DNA of 5,823 nt from Actinomycetes bacterium (GTDB lineage Bacteria; Actinomycetota; Acidimicrobiia; Acidimicrobiales; RAAP-2). Positions 1 to 5,769 of this stretch are shown here, piece after piece (positions within the stretch are counted from its first letter, which is position 1; each line of letters begins with the position of its first letter). Position numbers and translations under genes: made by a program. Under the pieces are notes generated by a model that saw only the letters and a program-made list of their open reading frames with translations, did no database searches and was not told the origin of the DNA. The stretch covers positions 1 through 5,823 of the forward strand of contig JAJYZN010000174.1 in assembly GCA_021799915.1 (NCBI GenBank), read 5' to 3'.

Positions 1-1050
1 TGGCGTACGCGCCTGGGAGCGAGCCCAGAGGTCGATGGGTCACGGTCGCCTCAGGCCCACAGCGACGGCGCGGTCGGTGTCCGTGGCGCCCGGCGCCTGC
101 TCACCCAGCGGCGGCTCCAGGTGGTCCTCGGGCTGATCTGGCTCCTCGATGCCGGCCTCCAGTTCCAGCCCTACATGTTCTCACGAGGGTTCGTCGCCAA
201 CTTCTTGGCCATGAACGACATGTTCCAGCCCCACGTGATCGCAGCGTCGATCGAGAACATCACGGAGTTCCTCGTTCCCCACGCCGCTGCTTGGAACACC
301 CTGTTCGCCACCACCCAGCTGGCCGTCGGCGTCGGCCTGCTCTTCCGACGCACGGTGAAGCCTGCGCTGTTGCTGTCCTTCGGCTGGGTCCTCGGCGTGT
401 GGGTGGTCGGCGAAGGGCTGGGCGGCCTGCTCACCCCCATCATGGGCTCGCCGCTGGCCGGGTTCCCCGGCCCGGTGCTCATCTACGGGCTGGTCGGTCT
501 TGTCCTTTGGCCGAGTGGCCGGCCGGGGCCAACGTGCGTTGCGAGCGCCGGGCCGCTCGGAGCGCATGGGACCCGGGTCCTGTGGGCGGCGCTCTGGTTC
601 GGCATGTCGATCGAGCAGCTACGTCCCGGCCCTGGTCTTTCGCCGAGCAGCGTCATGACGGTCATCGTGTCCATGAACGAGCCGGGCGAGCCAACCTGGC
701 TGGTCCACCTGGACAAGGTGGCGACGACGGCCATCAGCTCCATCGGGAGCCCCCTGGTCCTGGTCCTCGCGCTCATGGAGGTGACGATCGGAGTCCTCGT
801 CCTACGTGGCCATCAAGTGAAGGCTGCCCTCTGGGCGGCGATCGCGCTCTCGGCCCTCTTCTGGGTCGTCGGCCAGGACTTCGGTGGCATTCTCGCCGGG
901 CATGCCACCGACCCGAGCGCGGGGCCGCTCTACGTCCTCCTCGCCTTCAGCCTCTATCCCCTCGGCACCAATCGTCAGGGAGAAGAAGTCAGCGAAGCGA
1001 CGGCGGCGGGTGCCGCGATCGAGTCGGCCCCAGTCGAACTGCCCGCATGA
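1..1050 (+). CDS. Internally duplicated multi-pass membrane protein, DoxX-like in appearance (5' partial)
   Basis: The frame is open from the first base to TGA at 1048-1050, giving 349 codons in the window. The only in-frame usual start codon is GTG at 121. It has no good ribosome site, and starting there would remove an Arg-rich stretch (RGARRLLTQRRLQ) that fits a cytoplasmic lead-in to the first membrane helix. I therefore infer that the true start lies before the window. Counting from the GTG, hydrophobic segments lie near residues 1-15, 60-75, 82-104 and 117-131, then again near 154-163, 208-227, 234-260 and 270-280. The halves share a motif: WVVGEGLGGLL at 94-104 and WVVGQDFGGIL at 248-258. 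Each is preceded by a hydrophobic helix and a basic turn, and followed by a Gly-Pro-rich loop and a last helix ending in a Pro. This suggests a tandem duplication of a four-helix unit, as in DoxX-like proteins. The substrate is unknown. The gene runs convergently toward the regulator gene with 23 bp between stops, so it is not part of the mer operon transcript. Confidence 0.72.
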   Translation, partial: WRTRLGASPEVDGSRSPQAHSDGAVGVRGARRLLTQRRLQVVLGLIWLLDAGLQFQPYMFSRGFVANFLAMNDMFQPHVIAASIENITEFLVPHAAAWNTLFATTQLAVGVGLLFRRTVKPALLLSFGWVLGVWVVGEGLGGLLTPIMGSPLAGFPGPVLIYGLVGLVLWPSGRPGPTCVASAGPLGAHGTRVLWAALWFGMSIEQLRPGPGLSPSSVMTVIVSMNEPGEPTWLVHLDKVATTAISSIGSPLVLVLALMEVTIGVLVLRGHQVKAALWAAIALSALFWVVGQDFGGILAGHATDPSAGPLYVLLAFSLYPLGTNRQGEEVSEATAAGAAIESAPVELPA

Positions 1051-1073: not shown

Positions 1074-1487
1074 TTACGTCCGGCTCCCGTTCCCCTTCGG
1101 GATGAGGTGGCAGACACTCGATGGCGAGCAGTCCTCGGGACGGAGTCTGCGCGCCCGAGAGACGAGACCCTCAAGGACCGACCGAGCGTGCTGTAGCTCT
1201 ACGATTCGCTCGTCGATCTCCCTGCTGCGACGTCGGAGCAGATCAAGCACGTGGGCACACGGCACCTCGCCACGGTCCCGATAGGCGACAATCTCACCGA
1301 TCTCGCCAAGGCTCAGGCCGAGAGCCTGGCTGGCGCGAATGAACTGCAAGCGCTCGACCACCTCGGGTTCGTAGTCTCGGTACTTGGACGCTGAGCGCCG
1401 TGGCTCAGCGAGGACCCCGATCTCTTCGTAGTAGCGGATCGTCTTGACCGGGACCCCGGAACGATTGGCGGCCTCTCCGATGCGCAT
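1074..1487 (-). CDS. merR: MerR-family heavy-metal-responsive transcriptional regulator
   Basis: This 137-residue protein has the classic MerR layout. A winged helix-turn-helix occupies residues 1-70 (MRIGEAANRSGVPVKTIRYYE, then KYRDYEPEVVERLQFI and LGLSLGEIGEI). A long dimerisation helix spans about 79-112, and a short C-terminal metal-binding loop follows. Candidate ligands are Cys77, Cys120 and Cys126. In this family a Cys at the Cys77 position goes with sensors of divalent ions (MerR, ZntR, PbrR), while CueR-type monovalent sensors have Ser there. Compared with Tn501 MerR, the Cys82 and Cys126 equivalents are present. The Cys117 equivalent is missing from the LVSRARR stretch, and an extra Cys120 sits in a longer loop. 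The gene is divergent from merB and shares a control region with a MerR-type operator, so it very likely represses and activates the mer operon and itself. Hg(II) as the inducer is inferred from context; Zn, Pb or Cd cannot be excluded. The ATG at 1487 lies 6 nt after a TATCAT, which suggests a leaderless mRNA. Confidence 0.9.
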   Translation of the reverse strand: MRIGEAANRSGVPVKTIRYYEEIGVLAEPRRSASKYRDYEPEVVERLQFIRASQALGLSLGEIGEIVAYRDRGEVPCAHVLDLLRRRSREIDERIVELQHARSVLEGLVSRARRLRPEDCSPSSVCHLIPKGNGSRT

Positions 1488-1504: not shown

Positions 1505-1536
1505 TTGACTCTCCAGTGGGCAGGAGGGTTTATCAT
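1505..1536 (+). promoter_or_regulatory. MerR-type operator-promoter of the merB operon
   Basis: A -35 TTGACT (1505-1510) and a -10 TATCAT (1531-1536) are separated by 20 bp. This over-long spacer is a hallmark of promoters activated by MerR-family proteins (19-20 bp, against the usual 17). The spacer region carries an imperfect dyad: ACTCTCC at 1508-1514 and GGAGGGT at 1523-1529, with 6 of 7 positions pairing, centred between 1518 and 1519. A regulator dimer bound here would twist the DNA and realign the two boxes when loaded with metal. The expected transcription start is near 1543, giving a leader of about 100 nt before merB. Confidence 0.8.
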
Positions 1537-1644: not shown

Positions 1645-2295
1645 ATGGGGTGTTGCGTAGATTCATCGGACGAAGAGACCAAGGTGCCGGTGCTCTTCCG
1701 TGACCTTCCCGAGGACGTGCTCGCCATCCGTCGGGTCGCCTTCTCCGCACTGCGGCGCGAGGAGCGCCTCGATCCTGAACAGCTGGCTCTGCGTACCGGC
1801 CTTGACGACCACGCGATCGACTTGGCGTTGCGCCGGCTCCACGATGCCGGGCTTGTCGAACGAGATAGGAAGGGTTGCGTGGTCGGGATCGCCGGACTCA
1901 CCCTGGAGCCGACCAGACACCGACTCGTCCTTGATGGCCAGAGCCTGCACACCTGGTGTGCCATCGACGCAGTCGGTATCCCCGCTGCGTTGTCACTCGA
2001 CGCACACGTGACAACGAGCTGTGCACACTGTGGCGCTCAGCTCACGGTGGACATCGATCGCGGTGAGCCACCTTCGCAGTCATCGTTTCGAGGCTGGCTG
2101 CCGCCGACCGATTGCAAGGACGTCCGAGCCGACCTCTGTCCCCTTGCCAACCTGTTCTGCTCGCTTGCGCACCTGGAGCAGTGGCTAGACGGCGCGGGTG
2201 ATCCCTCGGGCGAAGCAGCCGATCTTGCCCGGTTCGCGGAGCTCGGACGACAGGCGTGGGGCGACCTCGCGCCAAGGGAGAACCAACATGGCTGA
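1645..2295 (+). CDS. merB: Organomercurial (alkylmercury) lyase MerB
   Basis: This 216-residue cytoplasmic enzyme is expected to break the carbon-mercury bond of organomercurials by protonolysis, releasing Hg(II) for MerA. Residues 20-85 form the helical, winged-helix-like N-terminal part (LPEDVLAIRR, then LALRTGLDDHAIDLALRRL). The catalytic domain follows. The catalytic set of R831b MerB (Cys96, Asp99, Cys159) maps to Cys105 and Asp108 in HTWCAIDAV and to Cys165 in DVRADLCPL. The non-essential Cys160 is Pro166 here. The length is close to the 212 residues of plasmid MerB. Unusual cysteines are present: a Cys3-Cys4 pair at the N-terminus and a CxxC at 126-129, where classical MerB has Cys117 followed by Thr. 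The gene is first in the operon and its end overlaps the merA start by 8 nt, so the two are probably translated in a coupled way. Some MerB-like proteins may not act on mercury. The intact catalytic set and the neighbouring merA make the call strong. Confidence 0.92.
   Translation: MGCCVDSSDEETKVPVLFRDLPEDVLAIRRVAFSALRREERLDPEQLALRTGLDDHAIDLALRRLHDAGLVERDRKGCVVGIAGLTLEPTRHRLVLDGQSLHTWCAIDAVGIPAALSLDAHVTTSCAHCGAQLTVDIDRGEPPSQSSFRGWLPPTDCKDVRADLCPLANLFCSLAHLEQWLDGAGDPSGEAADLARFAELGRQAWGDLAPRENQHG
2274..2280 (+). promoter_or_regulatory. Ribosome binding site that fixes the merA start
   Basis: AAGGGAG lies 7 nt before ATG 2288, inside the last codons of merB. It supports this start over the GTG at 2198, which would add 30 residues encoded over merB and unlike any MerA N-terminus. 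Confidence 0.75.
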
Positions 2296-3688
2296 CACGA
2301 GGCGCTACGACCTCGCGATCGTGGGTTCCGGCAGCGCAGCATTTGCAACCGCAATAGAAGCCCGGCGCAAGGAGGTCTCGGTCGTCATGATCGAGCAGGC
2401 CACGGTCGGTGGCACCTGCGTCAATGTCGGCTGCATCCCCTCCAAAGCACTCCTCGCTGCAGCAGACGCCCGTCACGTCGCTCTCAACCAGCACTTCCCA
2501 GGCATTGCCACCACGGCAGTAGGCGTGGACATGGCAGCGCTCGTCAGTGGCAAGGACGCCATCGTCGAGGCCCTGCGACTCGAGAAGTACGAGGAACTCG
2601 CTGGCTTGTACGGCTTCGACATCCTCCACGGCCATGCCCGCTTCATCCCCGGTCCCAGCCTTGAGGTGAACGGGGAGCGAATCGAGGCGGAGCACTACGT
2701 CATCGCAACCGGTGCCTCCCCTTGGGCTCCACCCATCCCAGGCCTCGATGAGGCGGGATACTTGACCTCGACGACCGCCATGGAACTGGACCACGTGCCC
2801 GCCTCGCTCGTCGTGATCGGCGGCGGCCTCGTCGGTCTGGAGCAGGGTCAGCTCTTCTCCCGGCTCGGTTCCACCGTCACGCTTGTAGTCCGGCGACGAA
2901 TTGCCCCGGTCGAAGAGCCGGAGATCTCCGAGGCGCTCACCGCCATCTTCTCCGAGGAAGGGATAGGCGTCCGACGCGGCGACGTCGGCAAGGTCGTTCG
3001 TGAGAACGGAGATGTTGCCGTCTCGCTCGAATCTGGCTCGGGCCACGAGGAGCTTCGAGCAGAGGCAGTGCTTGTCGCAACGGGCCGTCGGCCCAACACC
3101 GCAGACATCGGCCTCGACAACGTCGGCGTCACAGTCGGTGCACGAGGCGAAGTCGTTGTAGACGACGAGCTTCGCACCGCCAACCCACGCATCTTTGCTG
3201 CGGGTGACGTCACGGGTCACCCGCAGTTCGTCTACGTGGCAGGAACGCATGGCGGCATCGTCGCTGACAATGCGATCGATGGCGCGCATCGGCGTATCGA
3301 CTACCGCACCCTTCCCCGGGTGACCTTCACCTCGCCCTCCATTGCATCGGTCGGGATGACTGACGAAGAGGCGAATGCGCAGGGATTCGCTTGCGAGTGT
3401 CGGGTGCTCCCGCTCACCCAGGTCCCCCGAGCCATCGTCAACCGGGACACCCGGGGTCTTGCCAAGGTCGTGGCCGGGCGGGGCACCGGCAAGCTCCTCG
3501 GTGTCCACCTGCTGGCCGAGGGAGCCGGTGACGCCATCCTCGCTGCCGTGTACGCCCTCGAAGCGGGCTTCACCGTCGCAGAGCTCGCTCGAATGTGGTG
3601 CCCGTACCTGACCATGGCCGAGGCCATCAAGCTCGCCGCCCAGGCCTTTACCACCGACGTCGCCAAGCTGTCCTGCTGCGCCACCTGA
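2288..3688 (+). CDS. merA: Mercuric reductase MerA, core form without the HMA domain
   Basis: This 466-residue FAD-dependent pyridine nucleotide-disulfide oxidoreductase would reduce Hg(II) to volatile Hg(0) with NADPH in the cytoplasm. The FAD-binding motif GSGSAA is at residues 13-18. The redox-active pair Cys44 and Cys49 lies in GTCVNVGCIPSK. A second nucleotide-binding motif (VVIGGGLVGLE) is followed by VVRRR, whose arginines suit the NADPH 2'-phosphate. The second FAD motif is FAAGDVTG. The C-terminal dimerisation domain ends in LSCCAT, where Cys463-Cys464 is the diagnostic pair that delivers Hg(II) to the partner active site. The PYLTM tyrosine matches Tyr605 of Bacillus MerA, a residue near the metal. 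Together these separate MerA from lipoamide dehydrogenase and glutathione or mycothione reductases. There is no N-terminal GMTCxxC metal-binding (NmerA) domain: the protein starts directly at the FAD fold. ATG 2288 overlaps the last 8 nt of merB, and a gap of 32 nt follows before the next gene. Confidence 0.97.
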   Translation: MADTRRYDLAIVGSGSAAFATAIEARRKEVSVVMIEQATVGGTCVNVGCIPSKALLAAADARHVALNQHFPGIATTAVGVDMAALVSGKDAIVEALRLEKYEELAGLYGFDILHGHARFIPGPSLEVNGERIEAEHYVIATGASPWAPPIPGLDEAGYLTSTTAMELDHVPASLVVIGGGLVGLEQGQLFSRLGSTVTLVVRRRIAPVEEPEISEALTAIFSEEGIGVRRGDVGKVVRENGDVAVSLESGSGHEELRAEAVLVATGRRPNTADIGLDNVGVTVGARGEVVVDDELRTANPRIFAAGDVTGHPQFVYVAGTHGGIVADNAIDGAHRRIDYRTLPRVTFTSPSIASVGMTDEEANAQGFACECRVLPLTQVPRAIVNRDTRGLAKVVAGRGTGKLLGVHLLAEGAGDAILAAVYALEAGFTVAELARMWCPYLTMAEAIKLAAQAFTTDVAKLSCCAT

Positions 3689-3707
3689 GTGGCGCTCAAC
3701 AAGTGGG

Positions 3708-3713
3708 AAGGAG
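3708..3713 (+). promoter_or_regulatory. Ribosome binding site that fixes the start of the TlpA-like gene
   Basis: A near-perfect AAGGAG lies 7 nt before ATG 3721. It argues against an upstream in-frame GTG at 3595, which would run 94 nt into the 3' end of merA. Confidence 0.75.
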
Positions 3714-3720
3714 ATCAGCC

Positions 3721-4350
3721 ATGGCCGCACCACCCAGTCGCGCCGGCCGCCCACCGACCGGGCTGGCCGGAGCAGCACCCAGCCGGCGCAGGCGCCGTTG
3801 GCTCGGGGCGCTCGCCGCGGTGCTCGTGGTGGTGGGGCTGATGGTGGCCTTGGTCGTCAAGGGCCCGGGCCGGCCGGCAGGAAACCACACCGTCGCGCTG
3901 CGCCAGACGGGACAGAAAGCCAGCGCGGTGGTCGGCGGATCGGCCCCGGCCTTCACCGCCACCGCCGTCGACGGCCAGCGAGTCGTCTTCCCGACCGGGC
4001 ATCCGACGGCAGTGTTCTTCATGTCCGGGCTGTGCCCGAGCTGTGTCGCCGAGGCCCAGACCGCCGCGCAGGTCCAGGCGGCGTTCGCCGGGCGGGCCTC
4101 GGTGCTGGCGATCGACGCCGACCCGACGGACTCGGTTACGCTGATCCGCCAGTTCGAGCAGGCCGTTGGCGTGCCGATCCACTATCCCTTCGTCTCGGAC
4201 CCCTCGGGACGCCTCGTGGAGGCCTTCGGGGCCACCTCGACCGACGAGTGGGCGATCGTGACCGACGCCGCCGGCCGGGTCGTCTACCGTGGGCAGCTGA
4301 GCTACCCGGCGCTACGAGCCGCGCTGGTCCGGGCCGGGGCGCCTGCATGA
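3721..4350 (+). CDS. Membrane-anchored TlpA/ResA-like thioredoxin-fold protein
   Basis: This 209-residue protein has a short basic N-terminal tail (SRRRRRW at 21-27) and one hydrophobic helix at about 28-46. It is probably a non-cleaved anchor, with the rest outside the cytoplasmic membrane. A redoxin or TlpA-type domain follows from about 70. It opens with GGSAPAFTATAVDGQ (72-86), the usual lead-in of AhpC/TlpA families. A strand then leads into the active-site motif CPSC (Cys105 and Cys108, in SGLCPSCVAEAQ), and VLAIDADPTD is typical of the next strand. The position that normally holds the cis-proline is occupied by Asp175-Glu176, before WAIVTDAAGRVVYRG. The role is thiol-disulfide exchange outside the cell membrane, with electrons probably supplied by the CcdA-like protein whose ATG overlaps this stop codon (ATGA). 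Family relatives serve cytochrome c maturation. Placement behind merBA suggests mercury-related thiol chemistry instead, which is inference. Confidence 0.85.
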   Translation: MAAPPSRAGRPPTGLAGAAPSRRRRRWLGALAAVLVVVGLMVALVVKGPGRPAGNHTVALRQTGQKASAVVGGSAPAFTATAVDGQRVVFPTGHPTAVFFMSGLCPSCVAEAQTAAQVQAAFAGRASVLAIDADPTDSVTLIRQFEQAVGVPIHYPFVSDPSGRLVEAFGATSTDEWAIVTDAAGRVVYRGQLSYPALRAALVRAGAPA

Positions 4351-5261
4351 CCAGGCTGGCGTTTGCCTTCGGGGCCGGGCTGCTGTCCCCGCTCAACCCG
4401 TGTGGGTTCGCTCTGCTCCCGGCCTACCTCGCCTACTACCTCGGGGTGGGCGAGGAGTCTCACCGTCCGCTGCTCGAGCGGGTGTCCCAGGGCCTCTCCG
4501 TCGGCGGGGCGCTGAGCGCCGGCTTTGGCGGCGTGTTCGTCCTCGGGGGGCTGCTCGTCTCGTTGGGCCTGCGGTCGTTGATCACGGCTGTGCCGATCGG
4601 CGCGGTAGTGATCGGGGTGGTCCTCGCCGCAATCGGGGTGGCCATGCTCGCCGGCCGCCGGCTGGCGTTCCTGGCCAAGCGCCAGCTCTCCCCTGGCCGC
4701 GGGGTCGGGTACCGCCACATCGTGGTCTTCGGCGCCGGCTACGCCTTCGCCTCGCTGGCCTGCACCATCGCCGTGCTGCTGGCGGTGATCGCAGTGGCCC
4801 TGGGCGCCCACAACCCCGCCCAGCTGGTCGGCGTCTTCCTCGCCTACGGGACCGGGGCGGCCACGTTGCTCGTGGCGCTCACCGTGTCCGCGGCGCTGGC
4901 CAAGCAGTCCCTGCTGGCCGGGACGCGCCGCCTGCTGCCCTTCGTCGAGCGGGTCTCCGCCGTGCTGCTCGTCGCCTCGGGGGCCTACCTGGTGCTCACC
5001 AACCTACCCGGGCTCAAGAGCACCGCCCTGGCGGGCGACCTCTTCGCCCGGGTGAGCGGGCTGTCCTCCCGCCTGAGCAACCTGGTGGACCCGCACTGGC
5101 ACGCCTTCTTGCCGGTTGCCGGCGCGCTCGGCGCCCTGGTGGGGATCACCCTCTGGCGCCGTCGGCGGTCCCCGGGCCCGCGTCGTCGAGCCGACAACGC
5201 CCAGAACTGTGTGGACGGGATCGACGAGCCGGCGGCACGCTCCCAAAGCGCCGGGATGTGA
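4347..5261 (+). CDS. CcdA/DsbD-family membrane thiol-electron carrier
   Basis: This 304-residue integral membrane protein of the CcdA (DsbD transmembrane) family would carry electrons from cytoplasmic thioredoxin across the membrane to an extracytoplasmic thiol protein. The two signature cysteines are present. Cys19 lies in SPLNPCGFALLPAYLAYYLG in the first helix, and Cys139 lies in ASLACTIAVLL in the fourth. Helices are expected near 4-32, 50-74, 79-102, 124-152, 158-180 and 192-212, the usual six. After a polar linker there is a seventh hydrophobic stretch (253-270) preceded by DPHWH, then a basic tail with a lone Cys288. The ATG overlaps the stop of the TlpA-like gene by 4 nt, so translational coupling is likely and the two are probably partners. 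CcdA proteins usually sit beside cytochrome c maturation genes, none of which is present. Here it closes a mer operon. It could supply reductant to the TlpA-like protein or pass metal through its cysteines, and sequence cannot decide which. Confidence 0.9.
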   Translation: MTRLAFAFGAGLLSPLNPCGFALLPAYLAYYLGVGEESHRPLLERVSQGLSVGGALSAGFGGVFVLGGLLVSLGLRSLITAVPIGAVVIGVVLAAIGVAMLAGRRLAFLAKRQLSPGRGVGYRHIVVFGAGYAFASLACTIAVLLAVIAVALGAHNPAQLVGVFLAYGTGAATLLVALTVSAALAKQSLLAGTRRLLPFVERVSAVLLVASGAYLVLTNLPGLKSTALAGDLFARVSGLSSRLSNLVDPHWHAFLPVAGALGALVGITLWRRRRSPGPRRRADNAQNCVDGIDEPAARSQSAGM

Positions 5262-5769
5262 GGCTTGCCCGCTTCCAAGCACAACATCACCGTCCGCGTC
5301 CCGCGTCGGCGGTCGGGCGAGCTCGCGCGAACGTGATGCCGTGGGGGAGCCGGCGCTCGACGCCGTGGGCGACCCGGGCCCGAGATGAGGACCCCGCTCT
5401 CCCGGTACCGAACGTCATGCGGGTTTCTGTGGGCGCGGCTCGGGCTGCTCGTTGTCTCGGCACTGGTCGCCATCGACCTCGATGGCCGTCCTGTTTGCCG
5501 CACCGGCGTGGCACCTGGGCTCGCCGCGTAGGTGGTGGCGACGACCGCCATCAAACGTGGAGGCGTGTATCCCCGCAGCATCAGCCGTAGGAGAGAAGCC
5601 AGCGAAGTACCGGGGTCTGCCTCGCTCGCGGCGGACCCGGCCGAGCTGATTGCCTGACCGGCGCCGCCTCGGATCGGTCGGTGGCCGACTTCCCGTAGTG
5701 CTCCTCCTTTTCGACCCTCGCGACTTTTCGTGGCGGAGTAGCTACTACAGTGTATCGGAGGTCGTGCCG
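5262..5769. other. About 0.5 kb with no convincing gene
   Basis: No frame on either strand gives a recognisable protein. Directly after the CcdA-like stop there is a weak hairpin (GCTTG 5263-5267 with CAAGC 5276-5280) without a T tract. A 10-bp palindrome, GCGAGCTCGC, lies at 5317-5326. A small plus-strand frame at 5385-5531 (48 codons from ATG to TAG) has one hydrophobic stretch (LWARLGLLVVSALVAI) but no clear ribosome site. The same frame continues open after the TAG to TGA at 5655-5657. Another short hairpin, GTCGG-TGG-CCGAC, lies at 5677-5689. The region may be intergenic DNA with a decayed small gene. Confidence 0.5.
5737..5755. promoter_or_regulatory. Palindromic, operator-like stretch before the last gene
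   Basis: A perfect 10-bp palindrome (AGTAGCTACT, 5737-5746) runs into a second inverted repeat (TACA-G-TGTA, 5746-5754). Both lie 16-33 bases before ATG 5770, where a promoter would be expected. The bases resemble the TACA/TGTA half-sites of BlaI/CopY-type repressors, but those have a two-base centre, so the match is loose. The regulator is unknown. Confidence 0.3.

Follow-up and report, generated by a model that had tools for sequence, protein, structure and literature searches.

Elsewhere, proteins of the TlpA and CcdA families function in cytochrome c maturation; known CcdA proteins are electron carriers and are not known to carry metal. The occurrence of a TlpA-CcdA pair in mercury resistance (mer) loci is not new, as the pair is already annotated in the plasmid mer loci of S. 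longwoodensis (L001) and R. ruber (L002). It is also present in mer loci of Rhodococcus WAY2 and NJ-530, M. chubuense, Arthrobacter J3.40, R. qingshengii and Pseudarthrobacter and in a mer plasmid of Staphylococcus equorum (L155), and was absent within 6 kb in three other plasmid mer loci. The mer ORFs of S. lividans are presumably the same kind of pair, and we take the S. equorum plasmid to be pI258-like and the mer ORFs of pI258 to be the same pair. The excerpted text of PMC12195606 covers TrxA-/CcdA-region proteins of Gordonia, Rhodococcus and Myc. stephanolepidis, which carry the labels mercury transporter, mercury resistance transport protein and mercury resistance operon ORF3. The tabulated gene list of Boyd and Barkay (2012; PMC3466566), as excerpted, names neither TlpA nor CcdA. 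According to an excerpt of PMC6445937, transcripts of a Thermus thermophilus gene called tlpA are raised by Hg(II); kinship of that gene to the TlpA described here is not implied.

The window analysed here, a stretch of 5,823 nucleotides from an Actinomycetes bacterium (contig JAJYZN010000174.1), contains six genes according to the ORF list and profile searches: a MauE/DoxX-like gene, merR, merB, merA, tlpA and ccdA (Table 1). The same two families occur in L001 and L002, where they are likewise linked to merA/merB and the TlpA cis-proline is replaced by Ser. However, in those loci the pair is divergent from merA and is accompanied by an ArsR regulator and a CCAGP protein of ~100 aa, whereas the window has MerR, a co-directional gene order and no CCAGP protein, and its TlpA is 33-34% identical to theirs. 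The S. longwoodensis locus (L001, 2345-3440) additionally holds a VKOR-family gene and a second small CC protein. In S. equorum, one block holds merR, a small CC protein, a TlpA with Glu at the cis-proline position, CcdA and merA; this block differs from the window in its CcdA of 226 aa without a tail, its phylum and the position of the pair 5′ of merA.

Table 1. Coordinates of the features recognised in the window and the basis of each assignment.
Feature	Position	Strand	Size	Details
MauE/DoxX-like membrane gene	1-1050	+		Left end open; Pfam MauE E 0.004, below cut-off
merR	1074-1487	-	137 aa	Divergent MerR-family regulator; profile searches
MerR-type operator/promoter	1505-1536	+		TTGACT, 20-base spacer, TATCAT; 5′ of merB
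merB-merA-tlpA-ccdA operon	1645-5261	+		Behind the MerR-type operator
merB	1645-2295	+		Organomercurial lyase; WCAID motif and later aligned Cys present
merA	2288-3688	+		Mercuric reductase; TIGR02053; solved structure 5x1y
tlpA	3721-4350	+	209 aa	Membrane-anchored thioredoxin-fold protein, ResA-like fold
CPSC motif	4033-4044	+		Cys105/Cys108; sequence alignment
Asp175 at the thioredoxin cis-proline position	4243-4245	+		GATST[D]EWAIV; sequence alignment to DsbF 3ios
ccdA	4347-5261	+	304 aa	CcdA-type membrane protein; Cys19, Cys139, third Cys288
GCEAC codons (tail dithiol of P0001)	5254-5268	+		Other frame, overlapping the ccdA stop

The merB and merA reading frames overlap, tlpA and ccdA overlap by ATGA, and the 32-base gap between merA and tlpA contains the stretch GGAAGGAG. 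Coordinates and translations thus confirmed the original prediction that merB-merA are followed by an anchored CPSC thioredoxin-fold protein and a CcdA-type protein with Cys19 and Cys139; the MerR-type operator, the absent cis-proline and the cut-off ccdA tail go beyond that prediction. No additional gene was recognised 3′ of ccdA within the window, and the sole terminator-like site 3′ of ccdA lies at 5469-5486 (shuffled sequence gives more such sites), so the operon looks complete. The MauE/DoxX-like gene converges on merR and was rejected as an operon member. A relative of this gene (42% over the tblastn match) lies at 14365-15564 (minus strand) in L006, 5.4 kb from the pair of that locus.

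The best models for the merR product were CadR/PbrR and MerR, all under their cut-offs, and its best solved chain was 4ua1. The operator holds the dyad ACTCTCC-N8-GGAGGGT (1508-1529, 6/7 matched). Long spacers are typical of MerR-family promoters; the promoter scan, which allowed spacers of 16-18 bases only, reported no promoter. MerB passed the Pfam MerB cut-off (83.4 vs 27) and missed that of NCBIfam (86.2 vs 200). MerA passed TIGR02053 (574.8 vs 454.45 bits), lacks the N-terminal HMA domain and ends in SCCAT. L006 has an ArsR regulator, and its MerA carries an N-terminal GMTCDDC stretch. TlpA and CcdA of the window and L006 are 75 and 78% identical, whereas the MerA proteins are only 52% identical and the regulators differ; judged from these identities, the pair apparently came to lie immediately 3′ of two distinct merA genes. 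L006 also holds a second, canonical TlpA-CcdA pair with cis-proline (11527-12905) near its mer-type pair.

The linkage of the pair to mer genes was surveyed from both sides. The best 80 CcdA matches in genome contigs, fetched regardless of merA, gave 78 loci, and merA or merB was found within 4 kb in 34 of them, farther away in one and nowhere on the examined stretch in 43. The earlier proviso that the pair might be common next to unrelated genes and stand here by chance was not borne out: merA/merB lay within 4 kb in 11 of the first 12 matches (L012 and L013 being one genome), and on this ground and that of a mer-linked clade (below) a chance neighbourhood was rejected. In the converse survey, which covered 396 genomes from the phylum to which L009 belongs, MerA exceeded the cut-off in 31, at 33 places. 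A CcdA-type gene lay within 4 kb of merA at nine of the 33, which is a lower bound as several contigs end close to merA, and none at the other 24. The CcdA was of the mer type at eight of the nine places, including G003, the centre of the merA survey sample, while that of L133 groups with canonical CcdAs. The results showed that the pair is frequent near merA but not obligatory.

The structure model of TlpA shows a single N-terminal helix (residues 22-46), and ResA-type structures were among the top Foldseek matches of the predicted structure; a VIA-align comparison re-examined Foldseek's own matches only. As in the TlpA/ResA family, the thioredoxin fold and CxxC are present, and the Glu three residues past CxxC is kept. 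However, the cis-proline facing CxxC is absent, its place being taken by Asp175, which is invariant across a 10-row TlpA alignment, and Leu precedes CPSC in place of the usual Trp; the window TlpA thus differs at both sites from the thiol-disulfide oxidoreductases ResA and DsbF. The closest solved sequence by profile, an uncharacterised thioredoxin-like protein (PDB 3ha9), also has Asp at the cis-proline position. No relative of TlpA was found in a search of viral contigs (76 stretches). An excerpt of PMC2757866, citing Su 2007, states that cis-proline may prevent metal binding by CxxC.

Cis-proline was absent (D, S, G or T) in 34/35 TlpAs whose pair lies no more than 4 kb from merA/merB, the exception being L041 (2.1 kb from merA), and present in 39/40 other pairs, the exception being L010. 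The window, L001 and L002, from which the hypothesis arose, are themselves counted among the 35. Fisher's test gave p 5e-19, which was not used as proof because the rows are kin. Near-identical rows were kept in the counts (L060, L061, L065, L079; L037/L039; L115/L118). Dropped were repeated sequences, L084-L109 and L111-L113 (short copies of survey regions) and six 'far' rows with over 4 kb to the nearest merA/merB (four with Pro, one without, one without TlpA), as well as, for cis-proline, two mer and three non-mer rows without an assigned TlpA. Trp before CxxC was present in 31/40 non-mer and 13/39 mer rows (absent in 26/39; far rows included). Among merA-linked plasmid TlpAs added later, cis-proline was absent in 8/8 (S 4, D 2, G 1, E 1), although these records were fetched by similarity to the L002 or window TlpA and are therefore not independent of it. 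Three further plasmid pairs with no merA within 6 kb were also without cis-proline, merA lying elsewhere on both plasmids, and a Haloarcula TlpA match kept it. In plasmid pACHL02 (L151, 1527-7415), two cis-proline-less pairs lie amid DUF305/DUF3105 genes, ~8.5 kb or more from merA.

In the CcdA tree, which was built by a quick method and carries long-branch warnings, the window CcdA falls in a clade of 29 rows (SH-aLRT 99), 28 of them mer-linked. The 29th is L010, whose genome has merA on C28 at 51714-53129, the far end of apparently L010's own contig, so that merA would be near the pair if C28 were circular. A further mer-linked clade has six rows (support 99), and the two clades together take in most of the mer-linked rows. 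The window branch comprises the window, L006, L009 and the second pair of L007 (support 96). On the tree, linkage changes three times, cis-proline twice and the tail dithiol seven times, and only two independent pairs exist for linkage and cis-proline, one agreeing and one uninformative. With so few changes, the counts describe a subfamily tied to mer genes and do not amount to repeated evolution. The window CcdA lies inside a mer-linked clade, its gene pair adjoins merA and its TlpA is without cis-proline; the usual companion of the subfamily, a small MerT-like protein, was not found in the window. The literature matches listed apparently contain no description of cis-proline loss and the CcdA tail dithiol as marks of mer loci.

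These data bear on whether the two genes are an ordinary ResA-CcdA pair for cytochrome c maturation that stands behind merA by chance. ResA-type and CcdA structures are among the first fold matches, as such a pair would have. However, the clade and the residues set the pair apart from non-mer pairs, 11 of the first 12 CcdA matches have merA/merB close by, and the six window genes include no cytochrome c maturation gene (ccsA/resB or others) besides the pair, as was originally noted. In addition, L006, L058 and L075 have, at 4.9-5.7 kb from merA, a separate second pair that retains the proline. This explanation is very improbable, and an ordinary cytochrome c pair was rejected on the missing cis-proline and Trp and the mer-linked clade.

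Cys19 and Cys139 of CcdA are invariant in 33 rows and lie within the first and fourth predicted spans, which the model shows as helices 3-33 and 122-152. The CcdA structure 5vkv was the best profile match (E 0.0016) and the best fold match (prob 0.99, E 0.019, TM 0.32/0.41; no fold match at E 0.001); no Pfam match (PF02683) was obtained for the window CcdA, and some relatives match. The two membrane cysteines are shared with 5vkv, whereas the window CcdA adds a C-terminal span and a basic tail (8 K/R), which in relatives bears a dithiol. The tail dithiol (CC, CxC or CxxC located C-terminal to the final hydrophobic segment; the tail is basic and predicted to be cytoplasmic) was present in 18/37 mer-linked rows vs 1/43 others (L010); under this pattern, 19/37 mer-linked rows, the window included, were without it. 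A tblastn search of plasmids with the window CcdA gave no match though relatives are present there, perhaps due to the low-complexity filter.

P0001, 94% identical to the window CcdA, runs on to a GCEAC tail, and an ORF in a second frame of the window (5116-5388) contains the GCEAC codons and the same protein end as P0001, which points to a frame slip or a sequence error. The tails of P0002-P0004 read CASC, CEGC and CEC, so that all four closest relatives keep the dithiol. A real slip that ends ccdA before the dithiol would mean that the module is impaired in the window, while a sequencing error would leave nothing impaired. The motif across the stop and the four relatives speak for such a slip or error; however, the membrane domain is intact, and, given the 19 mer-linked rows without the dithiol, the tail seems dispensable in some. 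This explanation is improbable.

MerT/MerP resemble the pair in operon position and in having cysteine pairs both in the membrane and outside it, and no sequence relation to the window proteins was found (profiles, E 0.1). The original prediction that merT/merP-type importers are absent holds within the window: the six proteins gave no match to MerT, HMA or other importer families at E 0.1, and no window ORF of 35-220 aa had a CC pair inside a hydrophobic stretch. Its wider suggestion, a pair that replaces merT/merP, found no general support. When small proteins were counted as MerT-like on the strength of a CC or CPC motif within a hydrophobic stretch or of a profile match, one was found near 31/37 mer-linked CcdA rows, indicating that the two mostly coexist and do not exclude each other. 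The six without are the window, L006, L009 and the second pair of L007, which form one branch, L057_3886 (no TlpA assigned) and L133 (canonical-type CcdA). In L007, a MerT-like protein lies 6.6 kb from the ccdA of the second pair. This contig carries two different mer-type pairs (1079-2855 and 7183-9017), and a small CC protein lies beside one only. At the MerA loci L114, L115, L116, L118, L119 and L121, the MerT-like protein has CPC, not CC, and the CcdA is short (~230 aa). PF02411 matched 0/10 related genomes, but as no control matched either, this result is uninformative.

The pair belongs to a mer-linked branch of its families and probably either captures mercury outside the cell or maintains the capturing thiols in readiness. 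Both alternatives were in the original prediction; the lost cis-proline strengthens capture, and neither is singled out by the sequence. We tentatively propose, at somewhat less than even confidence, a mer-dedicated thiol module in which TlpA captures Hg(II) and CcdA hands it over to MerA. Outside the membrane, TlpA freed of cis-proline would bind Hg(II) via Cys105/Cys108 (the role of MerP). The two proteins would act as partners, TlpA passing the ion to CcdA, whose Cys19/Cys139 pair would move it inward (the role of MerT) and deliver it to MerA, in relatives via the cytoplasmic tail dithiol. The co-directional, overlapping genes behind a single MerR-type operator are consistent with hand-over, as are the mer-linked clade, the loss of cis-proline and the tail dithiols among mer-linked rows, and the association of similar pairs with dissimilar merA genes. 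Against it stand the window CcdA as read, which is without the tail dithiol like 18 other mer-linked rows, the electron cargo of known CcdA proteins and the MerT-like protein near most mer-linked rows, owing to which import need not be the task of CcdA. The retained proline of L041, the 24/33 merA places with no CcdA-type gene within 4 kb and the small number of independent pairs on the tree also count against it.

A close rival, which we consider a realistic possibility but short of an even chance, is that CcdA carries electrons: cytoplasmic reducing power would keep the thiols of TlpA, and of any MerT-like protein, reduced on the outer side, for Hg binding or for repair of damaged extracytoplasmic thiols. 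The CcdA-type sequence with its two membrane cysteines and the ResA fold and Glu of TlpA are retained, as expected of such a relay; the MerT-like protein, where present, could import, and the tail dithiol could serve as the electron entry point. However, the loss of cis-proline, and of Trp in 26/39 rows, sets these proteins apart from the TlpAs that accompany non-mer CcdAs, and electron transfer leaves mercury entry in the window branch unexplained, unless by diffusion or a carrier elsewhere. The hand-over reading, carried further, would make the pair a second, unrelated mercury import route, with a cis-proline-less thioredoxin as metallochaperone and CcdA conveying Hg(II) to a dithiol on the cytoplasmic side; the window branch would use this route alone, without a MerT-like protein. 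So extended, the proposal is rather unlikely.

In the window branch, no importer was found beside merA. A mer-linked pair with a residue-level mark, namely the missing cis-proline and, in many rows, the tail dithiol, brings the question of how Hg(II) reaches MerA there within reach of experiment. If the import-route reading is true, a redox relay would have been converted to metal handling.
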